Source: Candidatus Stackebrandtia faecavium (GTDB lineage: Bacteria; Actinomycetota; Actinomycetes; Mycobacteriales; Micromonosporaceae). Taken from it: DNA of 64,000 nucleotides. Below, one piece after another: positions 1 through 14,723 of this stretch. A program made the translations under genes and the position numbers. The notes beneath the pieces were generated by a model, which was not told the DNA's origin, searched no databases, and was given only the letters and a program-made list of their open reading frames with translations. How positions within the stretch are numbered: position 1 is the first letter of the stretch; the number at the start of each line of letters is the position of its first letter. The stretch covers positions 54,344-118,343 of the forward strand of contig DXIM01000062.1 in assembly GCA_019112895.1 (NCBI GenBank). The letters are read 5' to 3'.

Positions 1-293
1 GCAGGTTGGGCCTGCCTAGTGACGATCGGACCGTGCATCACCGAGTTGGCGAGGTTAACCAGCCCGAAACCCAGCCGGTATTTGCCGCTTTCCAGGTGCT
101 GTTCCACGAGTCCACGATTTTCTAGGGTGCTGAGCAACCGAAAAGCCGTGGACTTGTGAACACCGATCTCTTTGCCCACTTCAGTGACGCCCGACCACTC
201 GTTCGACGCCAGGAACTCCAGAATCGTGATGGCACGGTCAACGGACTGAACCTGGCCGGAGGGCGGCGACGATGCGTTTTGATCGGAATCCAC
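1..293 (-). CDS. IclR-family transcriptional regulator (N-terminal HTH part; truncated by window edge)
   Basis: Reverse translation gives VDSDQNASSPPSGQVQSVDRAITILEFLASNEWSGVTEVGKEIGVHKSTAFRLLSTLENRGLVEQHLESGKYRLGFGLVNLANSV, a typical IclR winged helix; GTG start inferred at 293. Confidence 0.85.
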   Translation of the reverse strand, partial: MDSDQNASSPPSGQVQSVDRAITILEFLASNEWSGVTEVGKEIGVHKSTAFRLLSTLENRGLVEQHLESGKYRLGFGLVNLANSVMHGPIVTRQAQP

Positions 294-348
294 GCCCAGT
301 AATGCTACAGGCTGGTGCCGTGGCCGCCAGGTACAGCGGCGGCCACGA

Positions 349-1293
349 CTATCCACGTCTTCTGTGTACCTCCGCAATGACGGCGTTCAAGACTTCGTGC
401 ACGTCACCGATCACCGCGTATGCGGCACGCGTCACCATCGGGGCTTCGGAATCGGTGTTGATGGCAAGAATCGTCTTAGCGCCCATGCATCCGACCCAGT
501 GTTGGGTCGCCCCGCTTATCCCGCAAGCCATGTACAGGTCTGGATTCACTTTCGTTCCGGTCTGGCCGACCTGGTCGGAATGAGGGCGCCAGCCGTTGTT
601 GGTCGCCACACGCGAACAGCCGACGGCCCCGTGAAGGAGCTCAGCCAATTCTTCGAGCGGGGCGAAACCCTCGGCGCTGCCGACTCCCCGACCGCCGGAG
701 ACCACCACGCGGGCATTCCCCAGCACGACACCGTCGGCCCGCGTCGTGCGTTCGACGAGGCGGCTACGGGCGACGCCATCAAGGTCCGGCACGAACGTGT
801 TGACTTCGACGTCGCCGACCGTGTCTTGGGCCTGGAGCGGCTCCAGCGTCCCGGGCACAAGTGTCGCCAGCTTGACGTCAGCGTCGAGCCGTGCATCTTC
901 CAACAGCATGCCGCCGGCGCGCACACGCGTGACGTTCCAGGTTTCCCCACTTATGACGGCGATGCAGTTCGCGGCCAGCGGGAGTTGCGAACGGGCCGCC
1001 GCCTGGGCCATGACCTCGTTGCCTCGTTCGTGGCCCGGGGCCATCACAGCGGCAGGACGGAGCCGGTCGATGAGCTGAGACACTGCGCTTCCATGAGCTT
1101 CGGGCGAATAGCCATCTATGTCTACTTTAAGCACCTTGCGGACGCCGTAGCCCGCCAGATCCGTCGGAATCGCTTCATCGGCGCCGACCATCACCGCGTG
1201 CAAGTCGCTGTCAAGGTCGCGCGCAAACGTCAACAGTTCCGCGCTCGTTTGGGTCAGGGCTTCACCGTCGCCCTCGATCAATGCCAATAGCAC
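349..1293 (-). CDS. etfA: Electron transfer flavoprotein alpha subunit
   Basis: 314 aa; C-terminal FAD-binding motif VVVSGGRGVGSAEGF...GQTGTKVNPDLYMACGISGATQHWVG...AINTDSEAPM. Confidence 0.95.
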   Translation of the reverse strand: MLLALIEGDGEALTQTSAELLTFARDLDSDLHAVMVGADEAIPTDLAGYGVRKVLKVDIDGYSPEAHGSAVSQLIDRLRPAAVMAPGHERGNEVMAQAAARSQLPLAANCIAVISGETWNVTRVRAGGMLLEDARLDADVKLATLVPGTLEPLQAQDTVGDVEVNTFVPDLDGVARSRLVERTTRADGVVLGNARVVVSGGRGVGSAEGFAPLEELAELLHGAVGCSRVATNNGWRPHSDQVGQTGTKVNPDLYMACGISGATQHWVGCMGAKTILAINTDSEAPMVTRAAYAVIGDVHEVLNAVIAEVHRRRG

Positions 1294-1294
1294 C

Positions 1295-2068
1295 TCACAT
1301 CACCTCCAGCTCCTCGAATACGTCGACCACGGCCGCGGCCGCCTGCTCCCCTTCGCCCAGGAACACGGTCTCGTTCGCCTGCGGGGGTGGCTGATGCAGC
1401 CGGACCTTCGTGAGTCCGCCTGATCGATGCGTCGGCGTAAAAGTGCGAAGCTGCGCCTTTTTCGCGTGTAGTCGACCTCGGATAGTCGGATACCTCGGCA
1501 GGTTCAAGCCTTCCTTCACTGCTGCCGCCGCCGGCAACGCGGCTTCATACACCTCGATTCCGGCCGCTACATCGCGGCGGAAACGCGCGCTGCGCTGCTC
1601 ATCGTCGAATTCGATGCCTTTGATGCCGCCGACGAGTGGGAGGCCGAGAGCGCACGCCACCCGCACCCCGACCTGATAGTTCCCTGCGTCCGGGGTCTCG
1701 TTGCCGAACAGCACGAGGTCGAACGTCAACGACAGCGCGCCGATAGCTTCGACGATGGCCGCGGCGGTGGCCTGCGGATCCCATTCCTCCTCGCCGCTGT
1801 CGACCAGAACACCGTCGTGCATTCCCATCGACATGGCGTAACGCAGCTGTTCCTCCGCTTGTTGTGGGCCCACAGTCAATACAGTCGCCGTGCCACCGGT
1901 CCGGGTGGCGATCTGCACGGCTTCTTCTATCGCGCATTCCTCGTGGGGTCCGACGGTGAAACCTAGATGCTTTGTGTCCACATTGAGGTTGTCCGGGGTC
2001 AGCGGGATCGACGATCCGGTCCCCGGTACTCGCTTCACACACACCAATATGTCCATCGGAAACGGCAC
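1295..2068 (-). CDS. etfB: Electron transfer flavoprotein beta subunit
   Basis: MDILVCVKRVPGT...NPHEE/GPHEECAIEEAV...GNETPDAGNYQVG; directly upstream of etfA; start may be the internal Met at about 2056. Confidence 0.95.
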   Translation of the reverse strand: MPFPMDILVCVKRVPGTGSSIPLTPDNLNVDTKHLGFTVGPHEECAIEEAVQIATRTGGTATVLTVGPQQAEEQLRYAMSMGMHDGVLVDSGEEEWDPQATAAAIVEAIGALSLTFDLVLFGNETPDAGNYQVGVRVACALGLPLVGGIKGIEFDDEQRSARFRRDVAAGIEVYEAALPAAAAVKEGLNLPRYPTIRGRLHAKKAQLRTFTPTHRSGGLTKVRLHQPPPQANETVFLGEGEQAAAAVVDVFEELEVM

Positions 2069-4597
2069 CTACCCTTTCATTCTCGAGTCGGAAGGATCGA
2101 ACAGCGGGGTCCGGCCAACCCGTGCCACCTCGACCGGGTGGCGGTGACCCATGTAGTCGACCCACAGGGTCTCGCCTTCTTCGGCGTATTCCGGGGGTAG
2201 ATAGGCCATCAACAGGTATGCCCCCACCGACGGACCCATGCCGGCGCTGGTCACATAGGAACTTCTGCCCTTCGAATCCACAATGCGCTTGCCATCCCGG
2301 TTCAGGATCGGCTCCGTGCCTTGCGGGTAGCGGGCGACGCCGTCGAAACCGGCATGGTCGGCAACGGTCAAAGTGCACAACTGCGCGGCCGGTGTCGTCT
2401 CGCGCGCCTGCAAGTATGCCTCCTTCCCGATGAAGTCGGGGGCCTTCACTTTCGGCAGCGCCAGCCCGGCTTCGACTGGATCGTGTTCGGCGTCGAGTTC
2501 GGCCCCCATGAGCCGGTACCCCTTCTCCATACGCCCGGATGTCCCGTACACCCCGATACCGGCCGGGACCACCCCCAGCGGTGCACCGGCCGCCGCCAAC
2601 GCATCCCACAACCGCAGTCCCTGTTCACTGCGCGCATGCAGTTCCCAGCCGAGTTCGCCCACATACGACACCCGCAGAGCCAGAACCTCGACACCGTCCA
2701 CCACGATGTATCTGGCCGTCCCGAACGGGAATCCCTCGTTGGAGACGTCGTCATTCGTCGCCGCGGAGAGAAGGTCCCTGGCACGCGGCCCCCAAACGCC
2801 GATGGTGCAGGTAGCCGAGGTCTGGTCGTGGAAGGCGACCGACCCGTTGTCGGGAAGATGGTCGGTGAACCATTTTCGATCGCGGGCGCCGTCCGCTCCA
2901 CCAGTGATGACGCGGAAATGCTCGTCGCCTTCACGCACGATGGTCAGGTCGCTTCGGAAACCACCGTTGGGCGCCAGCAGTGGCGTGTACACCATTTTGC
3001 CCACGGGTTTATCGACTTGAGCCATCGCCAGGTTCTGGAGGTAATCGAGGGCTCCGGGACCGCGGATGTCGAACTGCGCGAATGCGGACAAGTCGATCAT
3101 GGCCACCCGCTCGCGCATCGCGAGGTGTTCAGCTGTGCTGATCGGCGACCACCAACGGCTGTCCCACTCGTGAGGACGGTCGGCGATCCGATCGGAGAAT
3201 TCGTCGATCAGGCCGAGGTTCGATTCGTACCATTGTGGTCTCTCCCAGCCCCCAGCCTCGAAGAATTTTGCGCCGAGTTCGCATTCACGCTGGTAGAACG
3301 GCGACACCCTCGCAGGACGGTTGGATTCCCACTGTTCCCGCGGATGCACGATCCCGTACGTTTTGATGAACCCTTCATCGGCCCGCGCCTTGACGTGAGT
3401 GTCGAGCCGCTGATGACTGTAGAAACGGGAGATGTCCGCGCCGTGCAGGTCGATGTGTGACCAGCCGTATGTCATCCATTGCGCCAGTGCACGCCCCACG
3501 CCCGGTCCTTCCTTGATCCAGACTGCCGCCGCCGACCACAGGCCACGTACCTCGACGGTTTCGCCAAGTACCGGTGCCCCATCCGGAGTCAGAGACAACA
3601 AACCGTTAATGGCGTGACGGATACCGGCACCGGGGCTGTTGAGGATCTCCGGGAAGAGTTCCAGGGCGTCCTCCATCTGCGGGTCGAAATCGTCCTGCGT
3701 AAACGGCAGCTGTGTCGGCGACAGCGCTGCGGCGGCCAGGGACGGGATCTCGTCGGCGCTGTGCAGGATCGCCCGGTGCGCGTAGGAGCCGATCTCGAGG
3801 TCGGCGCCGCTTTGGCGCTCATACATGAGCGGGTCCATATCCCGCACAATCGGGTAGCCGATCTCGGATCCGGTCTCGGCCAGTTCCGGGATGGGACCGA
3901 CATCGATCATCTGGTGCACCGCCGGCGTCAACGGGATCCGGGCACCCGCCATTCGTGCGATCCGTGGGCTCCACACACCGCACGCCACGACGACGGTGTT
4001 CGTGGCGATGTCGCCGCGGTCGGTACGGACTGCGGTTACTTTCCCGCCGGTCGTTTCGATGTCGAGGACCTCGGTGTTGGCCGATACGGTCAACGCTCCG
4101 AGCGCAATTGCGTGCTCTCGCATCAGCGCGCCCGTGCGCAGGGGGTCGACGACCGCGACCGACGGGGTCCAAAATCCCGCGAGGATCTTGCTCGCGTCGA
4201 TGAAGGGCACGAGTTCGGCAACACGCTCCGGGGTGATCATCTCGGACTCGATTCCCCATGCTTGCGCCGACGACATTCTGCGGTACAGCTCGGCGATCCG
4301 TTGCGGTTCGCGAGCCACTTCGATTCCGCCGCAAGTCGTCAGCGTGTCGAATTGCCGATACTGGTCCATGGAGTCGAGCGTCAGCGCAGTGATCTCTTTG
4401 GAATGGTCCACCGGGAAGATGAAGTTGGAAGCATGACCGGTGGAACCTCCCGGGTCCGGCAGCGGCCCTTTATCAACTTGAACGATGTTGCGCCAACCAA
4501 GCTCCGCCAAGTGATACACCATCGAGTTCCCCACGATTCCGGCGCCGATGACGACGGCATCTGCGTGCTCGAGTTCGCTGCTCATCGTGTCCTCCAA
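2069..4597 (-). CDS. Dimethylglycine oxidase/dehydrogenase-like FAD oxidoreductase fused to a GcvT (aminomethyltransferase) domain
   Basis: 842 aa; N-terminal DAVVIGAGIVGNSMVYHLAELGW Rossmann FAD motif, GSTGHAS (candidate covalent-flavin His), then GcvT fold; ending PLFDPSDSRMKG resembles the C-terminus of Arthrobacter dimethylglycine oxidase. Confidence 0.88.
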   Translation of the reverse strand: MEDTMSSELEHADAVVIGAGIVGNSMVYHLAELGWRNIVQVDKGPLPDPGGSTGHASNFIFPVDHSKEITALTLDSMDQYRQFDTLTTCGGIEVAREPQRIAELYRRMSSAQAWGIESEMITPERVAELVPFIDASKILAGFWTPSVAVVDPLRTGALMREHAIALGALTVSANTEVLDIETTGGKVTAVRTDRGDIATNTVVVACGVWSPRIARMAGARIPLTPAVHQMIDVGPIPELAETGSEIGYPIVRDMDPLMYERQSGADLEIGSYAHRAILHSADEIPSLAAAALSPTQLPFTQDDFDPQMEDALELFPEILNSPGAGIRHAINGLLSLTPDGAPVLGETVEVRGLWSAAAVWIKEGPGVGRALAQWMTYGWSHIDLHGADISRFYSHQRLDTHVKARADEGFIKTYGIVHPREQWESNRPARVSPFYQRECELGAKFFEAGGWERPQWYESNLGLIDEFSDRIADRPHEWDSRWWSPISTAEHLAMRERVAMIDLSAFAQFDIRGPGALDYLQNLAMAQVDKPVGKMVYTPLLAPNGGFRSDLTIVREGDEHFRVITGGADGARDRKWFTDHLPDNGSVAFHDQTSATCTIGVWGPRARDLLSAATNDDVSNEGFPFGTARYIVVDGVEVLALRVSYVGELGWELHARSEQGLRLWDALAAAGAPLGVVPAGIGVYGTSGRMEKGYRLMGAELDAEHDPVEAGLALPKVKAPDFIGKEAYLQARETTPAAQLCTLTVADHAGFDGVARYPQGTEPILNRDGKRIVDSKGRSSYVTSAGMGPSVGAYLLMAYLPPEYAEEGETLWVDYMGHRHPVEVARVGRTPLFDPSDSRMKG

Positions 4598-4611
4598 GGA
4601 TGTGTGCGTGC

Positions 4612-5322
4612 TTACATGACGGCGCGGAGCCGCTTTTCGAAGTCGGCGACGTGTGCGCGCATGAGACGCCGCGCGAGTCGCGCCTGACCGTCGTGGATGG
4701 CGATCAGGAGTTCCACGTGTTCGCTAACGGCGTCTTCGATATGGCGCATGCGGTCCAAAACCAGGAACCACATGCGCAGGGAATGGATGTAGTACTCACG
4801 AAGAGTCGACAGTAGATACGCGTTTCGCGCTGCTCGGTGTATCAGTGCATGAGTCTGGTGATCGAGCTGCATCAGTTCGCGTGCCGCGGCACATTCCCTG
4901 CGAGCGTTCAACGCGCTGATCAGGTTCTCGATCTCGCCGGCGTCTTTGTCCTCGACGCGGCCGGACGCCAAAAAAGCAGCGTGTCCTTCCAGCTCGACGC
5001 GCACCTCGTTGACGGCTCTGAGGTCTGCGAGGTCGATAGAGCTGGCGAACATTCCCCTGTACGGGGCGACGACGATCAGTTTTTCACGCGCGAGCCTGTG
5101 CAGGGCCTCCCTGATGGGCGTGCGGCCGAGCTCGAGCTCGTTTTGGAGCGCGCGCTCATCGATGGTCGCGCCGGGCGCGATGTCCAGCGTGACGATTCGT
5201 TCCCGAAGCAGGTAGTAGGCCCTGTCGCTGAGGCTGTTGACGTAATCGCTGCCGGGCTCGAACGTCACCAGGTCAGGAAGGTCGCGACGACCCACCTTCG
5301 AGTGTGATGTAACAGCACCCAT
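4612..5322 (-). CDS. GntR-family (FCD domain) transcriptional regulator
   Basis: 236 aa; YYLLRERIVTLDIAPGATIDERALQNELELGRTPIREALHRLAREKLI wHTH plus all-helical FCD C-terminus. Confidence 0.92.
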   Translation of the reverse strand: MGAVTSHSKVGRRDLPDLVTFEPGSDYVNSLSDRAYYLLRERIVTLDIAPGATIDERALQNELELGRTPIREALHRLAREKLIVVAPYRGMFASSIDLADLRAVNEVRVELEGHAAFLASGRVEDKDAGEIENLISALNARRECAAARELMQLDHQTHALIHRAARNAYLLSTLREYYIHSLRMWFLVLDRMRHIEDAVSEHVELLIAIHDGQARLARRLMRAHVADFEKRLRAVM

Positions 5323-5351
5323 ACTGATACATCCTAAATATATTGCTCGCT

Positions 5352-5378
5352 ATGCGCAACGGTTTCCTAATGCGCAAC
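5352..5378. promoter_or_regulatory. Candidate operator: direct repeat atgcgcaac (5352-5360 and 5370-5378)
   Basis: Exact 9-nt repeat with 18-nt period just upstream of the GntR start. Confidence 0.4.
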
Positions 5379-5381
5379 CAA

Positions 5382-5906
5382 TCATTCCTTGACAAGGTCC
5401 GCCGCATGTCGCGCCACGCGCGCGCTCGTGTCGACAGCCGAGCCTCGACCGAGGTTGGCGCGCACAAGATCGGCGGCGACCCGGGCACACGACGCCGCAA
5501 GGGTCGCCGCCCCATGCGCGTCGTGGTAGAGGTTGGGATTACCGGCGGCGCCGAGCTTGACGCCGAGAACGCCGACATCGGCAGACACCACGGCGACGCG
5601 CCACGGCACCGCACTCGCTATCGACATGGCATTCGGGTCGCCGGCGTGCGACAACGTCATCGCCCTACGAAACGACGGCCCATCCTCCTGCGCCAACGCC
5701 AGGAGGCTGTCGCGGAGATGTTCGGCGTCGGCCACATGATCAGCAGCATCCGCCATATGGTCTCGGCTTCGCCGCGCCACCTTCGCCAAGACGCTGGCAG
5801 CCATGGCCGCCGACAACGCCGTGGCTGCCCCGACAGCCGGCACGGGACGTGAGGACGACAACGCGTCGAACCAGCCGTCAAGATCGCCGTAGCCTTGCGT
5901 GGGCAT
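5382..5906 (-). CDS. Cyclodeaminase/methenyl-THF cyclohydrolase family protein (FTCD_C / FchA-like)
   Basis: MPTQGYGDLDGWFDALSSSRPVPAVGAATALSAAMAASVLAKVARRSR; FTCD_C-type helical domain; start overlaps the folC stop (TGATG). Confidence 0.8.
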   Translation of the reverse strand: MPTQGYGDLDGWFDALSSSRPVPAVGAATALSAAMAASVLAKVARRSRDHMADAADHVADAEHLRDSLLALAQEDGPSFRRAMTLSHAGDPNAMSIASAVPWRVAVVSADVGVLGVKLGAAGNPNLYHDAHGAATLAASCARVAADLVRANLGRGSAVDTSARVARHAADLVKE

Positions 5907-7228
5907 CACCGTTCGCGTCCTCCATCCTCGGCGAGCCATTGCCGGGCGGCAGCCACAAGATAAAGCGAACCGGTCACGACGATGACGTCGTCATCGGACG
6001 CGACGCCGTCGGCGAGTGCGAAGGCCTCCCTAAGGTCAGCGGCACTCATGTGGCTGCCACCCGCCGAAGCGATGATCGTCGTCAGAGTGTCGGCATCCGC
6101 CGCGCGCGCCTGCGGCAGAGACACCGAAATGAACCGGTCCGCCACCATGGACAGAGTGGTCAGCACCGACACCGTGTCCTTATCGGACATCATGCCCACA
6201 ATCGCGACGACTCTATGCTGCCCGTAACGCGTGTGCAGCGTTTTCACCATCGCCTGGCTCGCGGCCGCGTTATGGGCCCCGTCGAGCCAGACATCGACAC
6301 CGAAACGACGGGATACGACCTCACCACGGCCCGGTGCGGACCATTGCGACAACGCAGCGGCAGCAACACCAGGATCTATAGACATTACGGCTTCGGCGGC
6401 CGCGACCGCCAGTGCGGCGTTCACCCGGTGATGTTCACCCAACAGCGACAACCATGCCCGCATTGGTCCGCCTGCGGGTGAGCAGATGTCGACCTCCTGT
6501 CCCCCACCGCTGCTGCGCACCAGGCGTGCCGAGAAATCATGTCCGTAACGGTGCAGTCGCGCATCCATGCGCCGAGCATGTGCCGCTATGACGGTGTCGA
6601 CGACGTCATCTTGAGGGCCGGACAGGACGGTCGCGGACTCGGCGATGATCCCGGCTTTCCGCGCGGCTATGTCCTCAAGCCGGGTCCCGAGCTGATCAGC
6701 ATGGTCATGCCCCACCGAACCGATGATCGCCACTGGAGCCGCGATCACATTGGTGGCATCGGTGTCACCACCTATTCCGACCTCGATCACGGCCGCATCC
6801 ACTCCGACCTGAGCAAAATGCAATAGCGCCAGCGCGGTCATCAGTTCGAAAAATGTCGGCTCTTCACCGCAGCCGGCCGCCGCGGTCTGCGCGGCCTGCT
6901 CGACCACATCGATGAGCTCACTCAAATCCGCATCATCGATCGGTTCAGCATCTACCTGCACCCGCTCGTTCACTCGATGCAGGTGAGGCGAGGTGTACAG
7001 CCCGGTACGCCAGCCGTGCGCACGCAACAGGGCCGCCGTCATCTGCGCAGTCGACGTTTTTCCGTTGGTGCCTGTGATGTGGACGGTCGGATACTGCGGC
7101 CGCGGCAGCTTCAACGCCGACATCAGTGCGTGCTGTCGGTGCAAACCCGCTTTCTTCGCGCCGCGACGGCGGCCGTACCAGCGCGCCAACTTCTCGCGCA
7201 GACTCGCCGACACGGGGTCGAAGGTCAT
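5906..7228 (-). CDS. folC: Bifunctional folylpolyglutamate synthase/dihydrofolate synthase
   Basis: 440 aa; VHITGTNGKTSTAQMTAALLRAHGWRTGLYTSPHLHRVNERV; overlaps the fhs stop by 4 nt. Confidence 0.93.
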   Translation of the reverse strand: MTFDPVSASLREKLARWYGRRRGAKKAGLHRQHALMSALKLPRPQYPTVHITGTNGKTSTAQMTAALLRAHGWRTGLYTSPHLHRVNERVQVDAEPIDDADLSELIDVVEQAAQTAAAGCGEEPTFFELMTALALLHFAQVGVDAAVIEVGIGGDTDATNVIAAPVAIIGSVGHDHADQLGTRLEDIAARKAGIIAESATVLSGPQDDVVDTVIAAHARRMDARLHRYGHDFSARLVRSSGGGQEVDICSPAGGPMRAWLSLLGEHHRVNAALAVAAAEAVMSIDPGVAAAALSQWSAPGRGEVVSRRFGVDVWLDGAHNAAASQAMVKTLHTRYGQHRVVAIVGMMSDKDTVSVLTTLSMVADRFISVSLPQARAADADTLTTIIASAGGSHMSAADLREAFALADGVASDDDVIVVTGSLYLVAAARQWLAEDGGRER

Positions 7229-8922
7229 GAGAGCCCGACGATCTGCCCGTCGTCATCGATGTCGATCCGCTCGGCAGCCGGCGCGGACGACAGCCCCGGC
7301 ATGGTGCGCATGTCGCCGCAGATCGGATACACGAACCCGGCGCCCGCCGAGACACGCACCTCACGCACCGGCAGCCGCCATCCGGTCGGCGCGCCCTTCA
7401 GCTTCGGGTCGGCAGACAACGACAGGTGGGTCTTGGCGATGCAGACCGGGAATGTACCGAACCCGTTGGCCTCGTAACTGTCGAGCTGACGCTTCGCCAG
7501 GGGCGACAGGTCGATCCCGTCCGCCCCGTACATGCGTCGCGCCACGGTCTCGATCTTCTCCTCGAGCGAAGCCTCGTCCGGGTACAGGAAGGTGAAGTCG
7601 TTGGGCTCATCGCAAGCCTGCATCACCACTTCGGCGAGGTCCAAAGCGCCCTTACCGCCTTTGGTGAAGTGGTGGCTGACGGCGGCTCGCACTCCTTCAT
7701 CCGCGGCGATGTCCATGATGGCCTGATGCTCACTGGCGTAGTCGGTCGGGAACGAGTTGATCGCCACGACCGGAGTGATCCCGTGTGCTTTGACGTTGTC
7801 AATCTGCTTGCGAAGGTTCGCGGCGCCGGCGCGGACATCCTCGGGGTTTTCGGCCACCAACTCCGGCGGTAGCGGTTTGCCCGCCACGATCCGGTATTTA
7901 TCGGTGTGCGCCTTCAACGCCCGCACTGTCGCCACAATGACGGCGGCGTCGGGTGTGAGCCCGGAAGCACGGCACTTGATGTTGAAGAAGCGCTCGCAAC
8001 CCATGTCGGCACCGAAACCCGCCTCGGTGATGAGGTAGTCCCCGGAATGTATTCCGATGCGATCGGCCATCACGGACGAGTTGCCGTGCGCAATATTCCC
8101 GAACGGACCGCAGTGGATCAGCACCGGGGATCCCTCGATGGTCTGCATGAGGTTCGGTTTCAGAGCCTCTTTCAAGATGACGCACATCGCGCCGGCCGCC
8201 TTCAGCTGCTCGGCCGTGACCGGCTGCCCGGAGCGGTTGTACCCGACCACGATGCGGCCCAGACGGTTGCGCAAATCGCGCAACGAGGTGGCCAGTGCCA
8301 GGATCGCCATGACTTCGCTGGCCGCCGTGATGTCGAATCCGGTCTGTCGCGGCGTGCCATCGGCTTTGCCACCGAGGCCGGTGATGATCTGGCGTAGATC
8401 GCGATCGTTCACGTCGAGCACCCGACGCCAGCTGATCTCGTTAGGGTCCAGGTCGAGGTGGTTGCCCCGATGCAGGTGGTTATCCACCATCGCCGACAAC
8501 AGGTTATGAGCCGCGGTCACCGCATGCATATCGCCAGTGAGGTGAAGGTTTAGCGCTTCCATCGGCGCGACTTGGGCGTAACCGCCGCCGGCCGCACCTC
8601 CTTTGATGCCGAATGTGGGCCCCATCGATGGTTGCCGAACCGCGACGATGCTCTGATAGCCCAAATGATTGATGCCCTGGCCCAGACCAACGGTCGTCGT
8701 CGTTTTTCCTTCACCGGGGGGCGTGGGTGTGATGGCGGTGACGACCACGTATTTGGCCTTGGGCCGCTCGCTCAAACGCTCCGCCGCATCGAGCGCAATC
8801 TTCGCCGTCGAATGTCCGTACGGTTCCCAAAGGTCATCGTCGATGCCCATCGTGTGGGCGATATCTTGCATCGGCCGCAGCGAAGCGTTACGGGAAATTT
8901 CCAGGTCGGAGGGCATTGACAT
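7225..8922 (-). CDS. fhs: Formate--tetrahydrofolate ligase
   Basis: 565 aa; TPTPPGEGKTTTTVGLGQGINHLG P-loop; FGIKGGAAGGGYAQV; strong family match over full length. Confidence 0.97.
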   Translation of the reverse strand: MSMPSDLEISRNASLRPMQDIAHTMGIDDDLWEPYGHSTAKIALDAAERLSERPKAKYVVVTAITPTPPGEGKTTTTVGLGQGINHLGYQSIVAVRQPSMGPTFGIKGGAAGGGYAQVAPMEALNLHLTGDMHAVTAAHNLLSAMVDNHLHRGNHLDLDPNEISWRRVLDVNDRDLRQIITGLGGKADGTPRQTGFDITAASEVMAILALATSLRDLRNRLGRIVVGYNRSGQPVTAEQLKAAGAMCVILKEALKPNLMQTIEGSPVLIHCGPFGNIAHGNSSVMADRIGIHSGDYLITEAGFGADMGCERFFNIKCRASGLTPDAAVIVATVRALKAHTDKYRIVAGKPLPPELVAENPEDVRAGAANLRKQIDNVKAHGITPVVAINSFPTDYASEHQAIMDIAADEGVRAAVSHHFTKGGKGALDLAEVVMQACDEPNDFTFLYPDEASLEEKIETVARRMYGADGIDLSPLAKRQLDSYEANGFGTFPVCIAKTHLSLSADPKLKGAPTGWRLPVREVRVSAGAGFVYPICGDMRTMPGLSSAPAAERIDIDDDGQIVGLS

Positions 8923-8945
8923 CGCAGATCCCTAATCTCGAACGG

Positions 8946-9797
8946 TTACGCGATTCCGCGGCTTCGCAGCTGTTGTACCCACCGCACGGTCGCATTGACA
9001 TGATTAAAGGTGTAAATATGCACGCCCGAGAGCTCACATTCACCGGATCGCGTGCGCGCAGACAGCTTGCGCACCAAAGAGTTGGGGCGGTAACCGCCCA
9101 ACCGCAATAGTTTCCGAACCGCAGCGAAGTTACCACGCAGAAACTTGATCGAATCCCCAATGCCGATCCGCATGCTGACGCGCAGTAGACGTGCGGGGTC
9201 GGCGATGCCGGGGATGCCGGCGACCACAGGTAGGGAGATGCCTTTGCCGCGCATACGATATACGAACTGCGCAATCGCATCGGCGTCGAAACACATCTGC
9301 GTCACCGTGTACGTCGCGTAGTCCTGCTTGGCATACAGGTCAGCCCACAGTGTCTCGTCGTCGATCAGGTGATGCCCTTCCGGATACGACGGGACACCGA
9401 TGTGTTCGAGCCGATGTCCGATCGCGTCCATCGCGCGCAGCAGCTCGAGGCCGTTTTTGAAACCGCCACCGATACCGTCACCACCGACGACGAATGCATC
9501 GCGTATCTCGGAATTATCGAGGCGCTGCAGTACCTCGACCAGCTCCGCTTCGTCCCGCACTTGTCGTGCCGCGAGATGTGGCACGGGCCGAAAACCCAAA
9601 ACGGCGAGACGTTCGGCCAGCTCCACAGTCGCCATCGTGCCCCGGGACGGCGAGGACGTCACCGTCACGGTCGCGCCAGCAGGCAGATACGGAAGTTGAC
9701 TGTCCAACCCACCCAACGGCAACAGCTCATAGCGCGGATTGTCCAACAACGACGATGCCGACGCCCGCCGAGATCGCGCTTTCGAGATGACACTCAT
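8946..9797 (-). CDS. Methylenetetrahydrofolate reductase family protein
   Basis: 283 aa; TIM-barrel MTHFR-like pattern (VTSSPSRG...PHLAARQV...FVVGGDG...QMCFDADAIAQFVYRMR...GVHIYTFN); diverged. Confidence 0.82.
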   Translation of the reverse strand: MSVISKARSRRASASSLLDNPRYELLPLGGLDSQLPYLPAGATVTVTSSPSRGTMATVELAERLAVLGFRPVPHLAARQVRDEAELVEVLQRLDNSEIRDAFVVGGDGIGGGFKNGLELLRAMDAIGHRLEHIGVPSYPEGHHLIDDETLWADLYAKQDYATYTVTQMCFDADAIAQFVYRMRGKGISLPVVAGIPGIADPARLLRVSMRIGIGDSIKFLRGNFAAVRKLLRLGGYRPNSLVRKLSARTRSGECELSGVHIYTFNHVNATVRWVQQLRSRGIA

Positions 9798-9864
9798 AAC
9801 AAGCTTTCCGACAATGTGGGTGGTTGTTGCGCCGGCGGCGGCATGGCCACCGCCGGCATTCTGT

Positions 9865-11085
9865 TCACGCCTTCGGCGTTTCCTTCAAAGGGTCTATGAA
9901 GGGTTTTTGCACGACGGTTCCCTGCCGCATGCCTTGCGGCGTGCTGATACCGATGGTGGTGCCAGGCTCGCTCAACGCTACAGGCAGCATCGCCAAACCG
10001 ATATTGCGTTCCAGGCGCGGCGAGTTACACGCGCTTGTGACCTGCCCCACCGTTACGTCGGCCGAGATGATCGGGAAGCGTTCGATCATCGAGCCATCGT
10101 TGTAGGTCCCCAATGGCGGTCCATCGATCTCGACGCCGGCCATGATCCGCGAAACACCGCGTTCGCGGACCCGACGCAGGGCTTCCTTGCCGACGAAGTC
10201 GGCCTCCTGCTCCAGGTCCACCATCCATTTGTAGTCGTAGCCGACCTCCATCGGATTAGTATCCAATGTGATGTCACAACCGTAGGCGAGCATCCCGGCC
10301 TCGATACGCCGGATATGACACGGTCCGATCGGTCGCAGACTGTGCGGTGTCCCGGCTTGCCAGATCGCGTCCCACAGTCGCGGAGCATCGGCAACAGCGT
10401 TGTACAGGTAGACCTCGTAACCGAGTTCGGCGGTGTAACCGGTACGGCTGACGACCATCTCCATGCCATCGAGCGTGTAGTGACGCAGGTAGTAGTACGG
10501 AATGTCCATGATCGATTCGCCGAACAGGTCGACCATCAGGTCTTTCGATTTCGGCCCCTGGATTTGAACAGGAGATACGTCGACCTCCTTGACCTCGACG
10601 TTCCAGTTCCCGGAATATGCCAGGCCCATTGCCCATAGGCCGACGTCGCTGTCCGCCAGAGACAGCCAGAACCGGTTCTCTTCAAGCCGCAACAGGACCG
10701 GATCGTTGATGATGCCGCCGTCGGGTGCGGTGATGAACACGTATTTGCATTGACCGACCTTGCATTTGCTCAGGTCGCGAGGGATCAGCATGTTGGTGAA
10801 GTCGAACGCATCGGGTCCGGAGATCTCCAATTGGCGCTCCACTCCCACGTCCCAGATCGTGACGTCGTTGAGCAGGGACCAGTACTCACCGATCGGGTCA
10901 CCGTAGTGACGCGGGTGGTACGTGTGGTTGTACACGCTGTACATGGCGACGCCATGTTCCCGGGACTTCCAGAAGTACGGAGACTTCCTGATCCGGGTGT
11001 ACAGCATTATCGATGGATCAGGGACGACCGCGGACGACGCTTCTGCGGTAGTCGCTGTGGTGTGCGGGTTGAGTACGTCCGACAT
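9865..11085 (-). CDS. GcvT-superfamily THF-dependent demethylase, DmdA-like
   Basis: 406 aa; YSVYNHTYHPRHY...EYWSLLNDVTIWDVGVERQLEISGPDAFDFTNMLIPRDLSKCKVGQCKYV...NDPVLLRLEENRFWLSLADSDVGLW...VSPVQIQGPKSKDLM...RRIEAGMLAYGCDITLDTNPMEVG, recalled to resemble DMSP demethylase DmdA. Confidence 0.8.
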   Translation of the reverse strand: MSDVLNPHTTATTAEASSAVVPDPSIMLYTRIRKSPYFWKSREHGVAMYSVYNHTYHPRHYGDPIGEYWSLLNDVTIWDVGVERQLEISGPDAFDFTNMLIPRDLSKCKVGQCKYVFITAPDGGIINDPVLLRLEENRFWLSLADSDVGLWAMGLAYSGNWNVEVKEVDVSPVQIQGPKSKDLMVDLFGESIMDIPYYYLRHYTLDGMEMVVSRTGYTAELGYEVYLYNAVADAPRLWDAIWQAGTPHSLRPIGPCHIRRIEAGMLAYGCDITLDTNPMEVGYDYKWMVDLEQEADFVGKEALRRVRERGVSRIMAGVEIDGPPLGTYNDGSMIERFPIISADVTVGQVTSACNSPRLERNIGLAMLPVALSEPGTTIGISTPQGMRQGTVVQKPFIDPLKETPKA

Positions 11086-11131
11086 GACGCCTCCTACGGA
11101 AGACCGGAAATTACGGCAGCCTCATTTGATT

Positions 11132-11166
11132 GTTGCGCAGTAAGCAACAGTTCTGTACTACGCAAC
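11132..11166. promoter_or_regulatory. Candidate operator: imperfect inverted repeat gttgcgcagta...tactacgcaac
   Basis: 10/11 inverted arms about 46-80 nt upstream of the DmdA-like start; contains GTTGCGCA (= TGCGCAAC reversed), which also occurs upstream of the GntR gene. Confidence 0.4.
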
Positions 11167-11282
11167 TCAAGTGTGACCGCGGAACATTGGCACCGTCAAG
11201 GGATTCGATGAACTTTTGTAATCGAATCACTACCCGAATCGGAATAATGGCGCGATCGATTAACTCGCGTCGACCAGCGTCT

Positions 11283-12299
11283 TCACTGTTTAGCCGCGGG
11301 TATCTCCACCCGCACCTCCATGCCCCCGCCATCCGGCAGAGCACGCGCAAACACCTCACCGTCGTGAGCATGCGCCACAGCGCGCACGATCGACATGCCC
11401 AAGCCCGCGCCATCGCGGCCCACTCGGGCCTTATTGCCACGGTTGAACGGTTCGAAAAGCATGGACAACGTCTCCAGCTCCACCGCGGCGCCGGTATTGC
11501 CCACCACCACCCATGAGACGTGCGCGTCCCCGCCCGTCAACATCCAGATGCGCCCCTCGGGCACGTTGTGCCGGATCGCGTTCTCAACCAGATTCGCGAC
11601 CAACCGTTCCAATAGTCGCGGTGCACCCAGGACCGGCGCGGGCAACCGCGACTTCGCCAAAGAAAGGTTCAACTCATCGGCGACGCTCTCCACAGCGGAT
11701 AGCGCCGAATCGAGACACTCCCCCAGGTCGGTGAGAACTTTCTCCGGCAACATATGGGCAGCACCCGATTCCGCCTGGGTCAGCCACAGCAAGGACTCGA
11801 TAAGCTCGTTGGCGCGAACGCAGCCCTCATGCACGACCCGGGCCATATGACGCAGCTCGTCGACGTCCTCGTCAGGATTCGACAAGGCGACGTCGATCTC
11901 GGTGCGCATCACCGTCAACGGCGTGCGCAACTCGTGGCTCGCGTTGGAAACGAATCGGCGGGTGGACGCCAACGATTCGCTCAGCCGATCCAAGGTGTCA
12001 TCGAGCGCGTCGGCGAGTTCTTTCACCTCATCATTCCGGCCCTGTAGCCGGACACGTTCGTCCATGTTCTGTGCGGACACTCGCCGCGCGGTGTTCGTGA
12101 CCTCCGCAAGCGGCCGAAGCAACCACCCCACCACGAAATAGGCCGCGCCGGTAACAACCGATACCGCGGCAACCACCGCCACGACATACCACGGGCGCAC
12201 ACCCGCCAACGACAGACATACCGCACCCATCGCGACGGCCGCCCCGGCGATGCACGCAACGAGCTTCCACCGCAGAGTCGGGCGGAAACCGGGTATCAC
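11283..12299 (-). CDS. Two-component sensor histidine kinase
   Basis: Two TM segments, HAMP, FVSNASHELRTPLTVMRTEIDVAL H-box, NLVENAIRHN N-box, GAGLGMSIVRAVAHAHDG. Confidence 0.95.
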   Translation of the reverse strand: MIPGFRPTLRWKLVACIAGAAVAMGAVCLSLAGVRPWYVVAVVAAVSVVTGAAYFVVGWLLRPLAEVTNTARRVSAQNMDERVRLQGRNDEVKELADALDDTLDRLSESLASTRRFVSNASHELRTPLTVMRTEIDVALSNPDEDVDELRHMARVVHEGCVRANELIESLLWLTQAESGAAHMLPEKVLTDLGECLDSALSAVESVADELNLSLAKSRLPAPVLGAPRLLERLVANLVENAIRHNVPEGRIWMLTGGDAHVSWVVVGNTGAAVELETLSMLFEPFNRGNKARVGRDGAGLGMSIVRAVAHAHDGEVFARALPDGGGMEVRVEIPAAKQ

Positions 12300-13033
12300 C
12301 GCGGTTGTTCCTCAGCCACCACGGCAACGATGCGGTAACCGGCGCGTGGAACGTTCTCAATGACGGGAGGGTCGCCCAGTTTGCGCCGCAACGTGCGCAC
12401 CGTGACCCGCACTGTCGAGGTGAACGGATCAGTGTGGGCATCCCAAACACGATCCAGCAACTCCTCGGTCGACACGAGTCCACCCTTCGCCTTCATCAGC
12501 TCCTCCATGACCCCGAACTCCTTGTGGGTCAGTTCGAGATCCCGGCCGTCGCGGCGCGCGCGGCGCTGTGCCTGGTCGATCTCGAGCTCGCCGAGGGTCA
12601 ACACCGGTGGCGCCGGAGGAGTCGCGCGCCGCCCGAGCGCCTGCACCCGCGCGATCAACTCGTCGAACGCGAACGGCTTAGCCAGGTAGTCGTCGGCACC
12701 GAGGTTCAGGCCGCGCACACGGTCGGCCAGCGTGCTGCTGGCCGTCAGCATGAGGACCCGCGTCAAGACCCCGCTGGCCGACAGATCCGCACAGATCTTG
12801 TCCCCGTGGACACCGGGCAGGTCCCTGTCCAAAACGATGACGTCGTAGCGCAACGACTTCGCCTCATGTAGACCATCGACACCGTCATATGCGACATCCA
12901 CCGCCAGCCCCTGCCGACGCAGGCCGCGCGCGATCGCGTCGGCGAGATGGGCTTCATCCTCGATTACCAGTACTCGCATTCGTGGCTTCCTAGAGCGGTC
13001 CGTCGGTTCCTTATTACGGGCTACATTACGCAA
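12296..13033 (-). CDS. OmpR/PhoB-type response regulator
   Basis: RVLVIEDEAHLADAIARGLRRQG...VLDRDLPGVHGD...LGADDYLAKPF; winged-helix C-terminus; 4-nt overlap with the kinase. Confidence 0.96.
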   Translation of the reverse strand: MRNVARNKEPTDRSRKPRMRVLVIEDEAHLADAIARGLRRQGLAVDVAYDGVDGLHEAKSLRYDVIVLDRDLPGVHGDKICADLSASGVLTRVLMLTASSTLADRVRGLNLGADDYLAKPFAFDELIARVQALGRRATPPAPPVLTLGELEIDQAQRRARRDGRDLELTHKEFGVMEELMKAKGGLVSTEELLDRVWDAHTDPFTSTVRVTVRTLRRKLGDPPVIENVPRAGYRIVAVVAEEQPR

Positions 13034-13364
13034 TCGCTTGTCTCACTCACGGTGGGCAACCGGCGCACACATAGTCATCCGAATGACCCACAGTGCTGTA
13101 TCAACGTCAGCACCCTTCGCCATAAAGTAACGAACGTCACATTGTAGAAATACGTCGATGTAACTCACCTGGTTGGCGGATTCCATCCGACCCGGCGTAG
13201 GAAGGCAAAAACCCAGTTTCAGCGCGGCACAGAACAAAACGATGTTAAGCGACTTAACACCCAAAACGCCCACACGGCGCAACAGTGGAATTTCGCCAAT
13301 GTGGTAAGACGCTCCCTCGATCTTGGTGCTTTTCACCTGGGGTTTCGCCGCTTAGTGTGGCCGA

Positions 13365-14723
13365 ATGCCAAAGCATCTGTGCAAAAAGACCGAGGAAGAC
13401 GGCGTCGTTATCAGCCGTGCGTCCTCGCGCAGCGGGCGTCACCGATTCCATGTCCCCGGTTCCCAACCGCGATTCACCCGAATCCTGCGGGTCTGGGTGT
13501 GGCTCCCGCAAATCAGCATCGAACTCCTGGCAGTCCTGGCCGGCAACATCAAAACCGTGGCCACAACCCGCGGCATGGTGCAGGCCCGCCGACTCGTCAA
13601 AGTCGCATCATCCGCACTACGCGAAGCACTACCCACACGTGCCGATGCGGCAAACCTGGCACGTCGCATCAACAGCACCAAGACAACCCTGATGGACCCG
13701 ACACTGCCGCGCCGTGCGGTGTCCGGACTACGCAGCACGGCCGTGGCCGCCAAAGGGGCCGCGCCACAGGTTGCGCAGCGCATCGCCTCAGCCGGCCGGA
13801 CCACAGCAGGTGTACTGACCGATCCCCAAACCCCTCGGCGAATCGTCGAATCAACCCACAACGCCACCCGAAGCGGTGTGCGCATGACCCGCGACGCCAT
13901 CAACGACCCCCGCGGGACGTACCAGGCCATCACCGAACATGTCAGTAACTCCACGGCGACGATAACCGCGACCTCCAAATCCGGTCTGCGCCACGGCATG
14001 GCGCTGCTGGGATGCGCCGCGATCGTGACCATGGCGATGACGGGCTTCAACTCCAACGACGCCGAGTCCGATTCACAGTTCACGGTCGCGACCGGAACCG
14101 CGGCGGAAAAGCACGCCGAGCGGGGCGCCGAACGCGGCGAAGATCCGCAGGCCGCGAACGAGCCGGACAACGAGGTGGCTCCCGAAGCCGAGGACGCGCC
14201 CCAAAGCGACGAGCCCGAGGCCGAGGAAAAGGACTCCAAGGACGAAAAAGAGTCCGAAAAGAAGGAAAAGACCATCAACACCAAACCGAAATCGGTGAAG
14301 GGTCTCGACAAAGCACAAATGGCCAACGCCTTGGCCGTCATCCAAGTGGGCGAAGAGATGAACGTCCCCAAGCGCGGCCAAGCGATTGCGCTGATGACCG
14401 TCATGCAGGAGACGAAGTTCTACAACCTCGCCAGCGATAAGTACCCCTCGTCGCTGAAGATCGACAACGAAGGTGTCGGCAGTGACCACGACTCGGTCGG
14501 GATCTTCCAGCAGCGGCCCAGCATGGGTTGGGGCAGCGTCAAGGAATGCATGGACGTGGAATACGCCTCGACCGCGTTCTACTCCAAGCTGCTCAAGGTG
14601 AAGAACTGGGACGACATGAAACTGACCGACGCCGCGCAAAAGGTACAGGGCTCGGCGTTCCCCAACGCGTACGCCAAATGGGACAAGTTGGCTTACGCGC
14701 TGCTGGACGAGATCCACCAATAA
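13365..14723 (+). CDS. Membrane-anchored protein with acidic/Lys-rich linker and C-terminal lysozyme/transglycosylase-like extracytoplasmic domain
   Basis: 452 aa; one TM (HGMALLGCAAIVTMAMTGF), E/K-rich linker, then IALMTVMQETKFYNLASDKYPSSLKIDNEGVGSDHDSVGIFQQRPSMGWGSV. Confidence 0.75.
   Translation: MPKHLCKKTEEDGVVISRASSRSGRHRFHVPGSQPRFTRILRVWVWLPQISIELLAVLAGNIKTVATTRGMVQARRLVKVASSALREALPTRADAANLARRINSTKTTLMDPTLPRRAVSGLRSTAVAAKGAAPQVAQRIASAGRTTAGVLTDPQTPRRIVESTHNATRSGVRMTRDAINDPRGTYQAITEHVSNSTATITATSKSGLRHGMALLGCAAIVTMAMTGFNSNDAESDSQFTVATGTAAEKHAERGAERGEDPQAANEPDNEVAPEAEDAPQSDEPEAEEKDSKDEKESEKKEKTINTKPKSVKGLDKAQMANALAVIQVGEEMNVPKRGQAIALMTVMQETKFYNLASDKYPSSLKIDNEGVGSDHDSVGIFQQRPSMGWGSVKECMDVEYASTAFYSKLLKVKNWDDMKLTDAAQKVQGSAFPNAYAKWDKLAYALLDEIHQ

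Follow-up and report, generated by a model that had tools for sequence, protein, structure and literature searches.

Three first steps have been named for the aerobic breakdown of glycine betaine, namely the Rieske enzyme GbcAB, BHMT and the cobalamin system MtgBCD (a 2025 PNAS paper, PMC12478193). In Sphingobium SYK-6, a methylenetetrahydrofolate reductase (MTHFR) oxidises 5-methyl-tetrahydrofolate (5-methyl-THF) as partner of the THF demethylase LigM (PMC12585457, PMC13001107). We focus here on a minus-strand locus at the start of a 64,000-nucleotide stretch of Candidatus Stackebrandtia faecavium (contig DXIM01000062.1, positions 54,344 to 118,343; hereafter the window), whose first gene (9865..11085) encodes a 406-residue GCV_T methyltransferase that is DmdA-like by NCBIfam and structure matches. 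The locus is probably a dedicated, THF-linked catabolic operon for glycine betaine: its folate logic is strongly supported, and its substrate we infer from the neighbouring genes. Beyond this single locus, it is on balance likely that we are dealing with a new aerobic route, in which a methyltransferase of the DmdA/GcvT family, working without cobalamin or oxygen, passes a methyl group from glycine betaine to THF and feeds an all-folate oxidation chain. The route would occur across halophilic Actinomycetota and, through a related enzyme, also in haloarchaea; in a form of it linked to electron transfer flavoprotein (ETF), one enzyme resembling dimethylglycine oxidase (DMGO) would serve both later demethylations.

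In the proposed pathway, the DmdA-like protein would first demethylate glycine betaine to dimethylglycine, with THF accepting the methyl group as 5-methyl-THF; the reaction type is taken from the family and the substrate from the neighbours. The DMGO-like flavoprotein would then convert dimethylglycine to sarcosine, perhaps on to glycine, producing 5,10-methylene-THF and passing electrons to its own ETF. The operon MetF, running in the oxidative direction, would bring 5-methyl-THF to the same 5,10-methylene-THF, which FolD (encoded elsewhere in the genome) and an FTCD_C cyclohydrolase would take to 10-formyl-THF. Finally, Fhs in reverse would release formate and form ATP. Methylene-THF could also leave through a side exit, combining with glycine to yield serine, and FolC may polyglutamylate the extra folate.

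Gene neighbourhood of the DmdA-like gene

Scanning one genome per species gave 169 relatives of the DmdA-like gene; the best 80 loci were read, 71 of which are complete. These best 80 come mostly from Actinomycetota, many of them from Haloechinothrix, Saccharomonospora, Prauserella, Phytoactinopolyspora, Actinopolyspora, Nesterenkonia, Nocardiopsis and Saccharopolyspora, which we take to be halophilic or halotolerant genera; Rubrobacter and Arthrobacter are also represented. The Haloechinothrix protein shares 78% identity with that of the window. Glycine betaine is a common osmolyte in halophiles. An initial annotation of the locus had set co-conservation of its genes in relatives, beforehand, as the test on which its reading could fail, and DMGO or dimethylglycine dehydrogenase (DMGDH) genes are indeed found in 60 of the 71 complete loci, MetF in 59 and Fhs in 53, followed by IclR (35), EtfB (34), EtfA (31), SoxA (16) and SoxB (16). 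Either DMGO/DMGDH or a sarcosine/amine oxidase adjoins the DmdA-like gene in 64 of these 71. By our estimate, a random gene would have a DMGO gene within 10 kb in about 1 percent of cases; the arrangement is far beyond chance, and in different actinobacterial families the DmdA-like gene is found in the company of this set.

Two layouts can be distinguished. The window type runs DmdA-MetF-Fhs-DMGO-EtfB-EtfA(-IclR), and across all 80 loci EtfB follows DMGO in 39, EtfA in 36 and IclR occurs in 36, where collinear loci have it after etfA; the median gaps between collinear core genes are 20-74 bp. The other type carries Sox or MSOX genes with another DMGO; SoxBDAG or an amine oxidase of the MSOX/N-methyltryptophan-oxidase type occurs in 19 loci, and the 39 ETF loci and 19 Sox/MSOX loci coincide in no case, a figure inflated by relatedness. 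In one locus (L083), DMGO, the DmdA-like gene, MetF, Fhs, FTCD_C, FolD, GcvT and an N-methyltryptophan/monomeric sarcosine oxidase-like amine oxidase form one consecutive run with a ProP-type transporter upstream, and BetT-type BCCT genes lie near three others (L063, L066, L108). A sampled genome of the same genus as the window has no DmdA-like gene and the closest relatives belong to other families, which suggests horizontal gain.

The window genome (3.38 Mb in 195 contigs, 99% complete) contains, in a Pfam search, no Rieske alpha subunit, no BHMT (the only S-methyl_trans match being MetH-sized) and no MttB/MtgB family protein, so that the lack of a Rieske GbcAB or BHMT first step, read initially from the locus, holds genome-wide. 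The dehydrogenase FolD, likewise reported as missing from the locus, is present on another contig, and the genome has two BCCT transporters. Mutual exclusion between the DmdA-like gene and GbcA across the order was considered and set aside as uninformative: among 299 genomes, 7 and about 20 carry them, with an overlap of 0 where about 0.5 would be expected.

The proposed steps from dimethylglycine to formate

The DMGO-like protein (2069..4597, minus strand, as are all genes of the locus; 842 residues) joins an FAD oxidoreductase of the DMGO/DMGDH kind to a folate domain like that of GcvT (DAO + FAO_M + GCV_T + GCV_T_C), and its alignment with the dimethylglycine oxidase of Arthrobacter covers the full length (1pj5, E=1.3e-162). 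It keeps H55, H228, Y259 and D550, equivalents of the covalent-FAD His, His225, Tyr259 and Asp552 in the Arthrobacter enzyme, the last three of which we take to be catalytic (His225, Tyr259) and folate-related (Asp552). Since it is paired with a dedicated ETF, the enzyme is probably a dehydrogenase, and EtfB (1295..2068; Pfam ETF) and EtfA (349..1293; Pfam ETF_alpha and ETF) are proposed as its electron acceptor. The GCV_T family occurs in only four proteins of the genome (GcvT, the DMGO-like and DmdA-like proteins and one further weak member) and the other full-length strong DAO match resembles GlpD by sequence; therefore no sarcosine oxidase stands out beside the DMGO-like protein. Most simply, sarcosine would be a further substrate of this ETF-linked enzyme; otherwise it would be an end product.

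The operon MetF (8946..9797; 283 residues) scores 48.4 bits with Pfam MTHFR, above cut-off, and is a second, divergent copy beside a canonical MetF elsewhere in the genome (C44, 336 bits). A profile of 17 operon MetFs matches 7xg9 at 1.5e-50, with the next MTHFR at 2.8e-16, and E24, T47, H74, D107, Y138, H142, K157 and Q167 are invariant. We believe 7xg9 to be the SYK-6 MTHFR reported to work in the oxidative direction. Fhs, the formate-THF ligase (7225..8922; 565 residues), is assigned by NF010030 (820.5 bits vs a cut-off of 652). MetF and Fhs are both predicted to run in the direction of methyl-group oxidation.

Two further folate genes have a narrower distribution. FolC, a folylpolyglutamate/dihydrofolate synthase (5906..7228; TIGR01499, 332 bits vs 162.65), is a second genome copy, the other being at C153 (360 bits). 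The FTCD_C protein (5382..5939; Pfam, 51.7 bits vs 24.5) is a probable methenyl-THF cyclohydrolase (FchA-like); a profile of the window protein and three relatives matches the cyclodeaminase 1o5h (5e-25) and the methenyl-THF cyclohydrolase 7vg4 (2e-22) about equally, and its activity is therefore judged by position, as the gene lies close to fhs in the window and in four distant actinobacterial loci (L080, L083, L086, L097), three of whose proteins were aligned and are 33-35% identical to it. FTCD_C thus occurs in 4 of the 80 relatives' loci and FolC beside the DmdA-like gene in 1 of 80 (L102 only). FolC was considered as a core gene and rejected, as it occurs in the window and this one other locus. 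Both are accessory, lineage-specific additions, outside the conserved core; the broader proposal of the initial annotation that methyl groups pass via THF to formate, on the other hand, is supported by the family identities and by co-conservation.

The presence of FolC and of a second MetF, which are housekeeping-type genes, and the fact that reverse Fhs/MetF flux is a prediction, would also fit a module for folate salvage, in which betaine methyl groups are used but not fully oxidised and which supplies methionine and purine synthesis and not growth. We regard this as highly unlikely: the operon set is extra, given that a canonical MetF as well as FolC, FolD and MetH are encoded elsewhere in the genome, and the dedicated ETF and regulators suggest catabolism. 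The regulators are a GntR/FCD protein (4612..5322; Pfam GntR + FCD), to which proteins in 14 loci are 36-55% identical, and an IclR-family protein matching the BhcR-like IclR model of NCBIfam (172 bits), whose N-terminal part lies in the window (1..377; whole gene L005:15810-16721, 303 residues). They probably sense the substrate or glycine/glyoxylate.

The nine adjacent same-strand genes listed initially at 349-11085 are confirmed in position and family by open reading frames and Pfam/NCBIfam matches; the IclR gene, which runs beyond window position 1, had been missed, and we treat the locus as ten genes. Distances within the operon range from -34 to +67 bp. The reported fhs/folC overlap of 4 bp (ATGA) is seen, as is that of folC with the FTCD_C gene (TGATG), provided that the downstream ATG is the start; the true start is likely at 5906 (174 residues). 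The dmgo, etfB and etfA genes are spaced by 0-1 bp, and an AGGAGG ribosome site precedes the DmdA-like gene. A riboswitch search at the locus found none, and promoter and terminator scans of it yielded no more than shuffled sequence. Directly upstream, on the same strand, lies a two-component regulator/sensor pair (CopR/S- or VanR/S-like, window 11283-13033). Just outside the window start (L005:7317-15746) are dihydroxybenzoate siderophore genes (dhbA-like, dhbC-like, DAHP synthase, isochorismatase-like) and ABC transport genes, which are unrelated to the operon.

The first enzyme and its proposed substrate

The best NCBIfam model for the DmdA-like protein is that of the dimethylsulfoniopropionate (DMSP) demethylase (NF009133), at 338.7 bits and under the equivalog cut-off of 410. 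Its best solved structure is 3tfh (E=9.2e-71), labelled a GcvT-like aminomethyltransferase in the structure table and presumably Pelagibacter DmdA; trimethylamine N-oxide demethylase and true GcvT rank behind, and LigM and DesA are only remote relatives (LigM 40.7 bits). The protein has N127-D128, W140, S142 and D145, which are common to DmdA-type proteins and differ from GcvT (DD, without the W/S/D), and E224 and Y226 are conserved. In a quick tree of 47 proteins, some deep forks of which are open, the actinobacterial set, the annotated DMSP demethylases, a Roseobacter-plasmid set and a haloarchaeal set form separate branches. The DmdA-type signature is thus present, whereas the equivalog score is not reached and neither clustering with DMSP demethylases nor DmdBCD neighbours are found. 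By these features the protein probably works like DmdA, transferring methyl to THF, yet neither its score nor its placement puts it among the DMSP demethylases. A Tyr (Y217) at the W197-equivalent position was considered as a DMSP marker and dropped, as Phaeobacter DSM 17395 DmdA likewise has Tyr there. A structure prediction from eight near relatives (pLDDT 46.7) was not used.

If DMSP were nonetheless the first substrate, the DmdA-like protein would be a genuine DMSP demethylase, with a separate compound left to the DMGO-like enzyme. This is the main rival explanation, and the closest curated family and structure are DmdA's, while Roseobacter relatives (48-52% identity) have CoA-ligase and hydratase neighbours. 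The score and the separate branch described above argue against it, however, and no DmdB/DmdC/DmdD-type gene set recurs in the 80 loci, where only scattered 26-41% matches occur; DMGO/Sox-type genes stand there instead in 64 of 71. We therefore consider DMSP a rather improbable substrate. Where the initial annotation had proposed glycine betaine, DMSP or a related compound, the neighbours favour glycine betaine over DMSP.

The substrate of the DmdA-like protein could also be a different N-methylated compound (one derived from choline, carnitine, proline betaine, or else dimethylglycine on which the cells grow), its methyl groups draining to THF in the same way. Some loci have genes for a BetT choline-type transporter or BetB-like genes nearby, which would agree with this, as would the DmdA-like gene standing alone in L060 and L061; DMGO and Sox adjacency, on the other hand, most simply fits the series betaine, dimethylglycine, sarcosine and glycine, and the recurring neighbours include no genes for carnitine or proline betaine. 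Such a substrate seems unlikely to us.

Several observations weigh against glycine betaine as the substrate of a complete pathway. First of all, this reading rests on sequence inference throughout, and the best family model for the first enzyme remains that of DMSP demethylase. Second, the Phaeobacter and Loktanella relatives at 48-52% lie in a DMSP-like setting, with acyl-CoA synthetase and enoyl-CoA hydratase neighbours, and some Arthrobacter loci (L060, L061) hold the DmdA-like gene alone. Third, Pseudonocardia acaciae (L058) has BetB-like and GbcA-like genes beside its DmdA-like gene, so that the routes are not strictly alternative; the GbcA-like Rieske gene (L058:12076-13191) scores 208 bits, below the family cut-off, which suggests either both betaine routes or another Rieske substrate. 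Finally, within the window genome no separate sarcosine oxidase or dehydrogenase is recognisable, only the DMGO-like gene being found, no classical ETF-QO was found with Pfam, and the absence calls rest on a draft of 195 contigs.

More distant relatives are carried on plasmids. Those of haloarchaea (38-41% identity) have MetF with variable members of the set: with FolD and BCCT in L134, with Fhs, FolD and DAO-GcvT oxidoreductases in L152, and with a DAO-GcvT oxidoreductase and a ring-hydroxylating oxygenase in L135. These plasmids and L153 carry folate one-carbon clusters, variably including FolD, Fhs, FolP/PabB, dihydrofolate reductase and DMGDH-like oxidoreductases, which tie haloarchaeal folate use to methyl catabolism. 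On several plasmids of Phaeobacter inhibens and Loktanella (L131, L132, L130; about 9300-14100), a mobile-looking cassette has the order Lrp/AsnC, DmdA-like (48-52% to the window), OsmC, enoyl-CoA hydratase and acyl-CoA synthetase; it may encode a further pathway that demethylates an onium compound, separate from the DmdA found in the same species. A plasmid of Lichenihabitans psoromatis (L133, 8603-13170) combines a DmdA-like gene (48%) with MetF, PurU, FolD and ABC transporters, with no annotated DMGO, and may encode a related THF demethylation set.

Relation to described systems

Each type of step is already known; for their combination with the proposed first-step substrate, no description was found in the open-access literature. 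If true, the proposal would add a fourth aerobic first step for glycine betaine, used by halophilic actinobacteria that carry the operon, with every methyl group kept on folate. Glycine betaine is one of the leading osmolytes of the sea and of saline soils, and the DmdA-like gene would then be a marker for betaine use in saline environments. Such genes are now labelled glycine cleavage T protein or DMSP demethylase, and relabelling them could correct inflated counts of DMSP demethylation in metagenomes. The prediction is sharp, as it concerns one enzyme and one substrate.

Compared with known systems, the locus shares individual elements with each. First of all, DmdA of Pelagibacter and Ruegeria has full-length homology to the operon protein, the same N-D/W-S-D motif and, presumably, THF as methyl acceptor; the operon protein, on the other hand, falls below the curated score, forms its own branch and has DMGO, Sox and ETF neighbours instead of DmdBCD. 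Second, the LigM/DesA-MetF-LigH system of Sphingobium SYK-6, in which we take LigH to be a formyl-THF ligase, acts on aromatic methoxy groups, lacks DMGO and ETF, and has in LigM a distant protein. What it would share with the operon is the logic of a THF demethylase joined to an oxidative MetF (PMC12585457). Third, Arthrobacter dimethylglycine oxidase and mammalian DMGDH are full-length homologues of the operon gene, which keeps the key residues, yet the operon enzyme comes with its own ETF. Fourth, the THF-linked one-carbon oxidation of SAR11 (DmdA, MetF, FolD, Fhs, DMGDH, SARDH) uses the same THF steps (PMC3160333), whereas betaine enters there via BHMT and the genes are scattered. Finally, GbcAB, BHMT (SAR11) and MtgBCD lead to the same product, dimethylglycine (PMC12478193); none of them is found in the window genome by Pfam, and the methyl group in the operon would instead go directly to THF, without oxygen, homocysteine or cobalamin.

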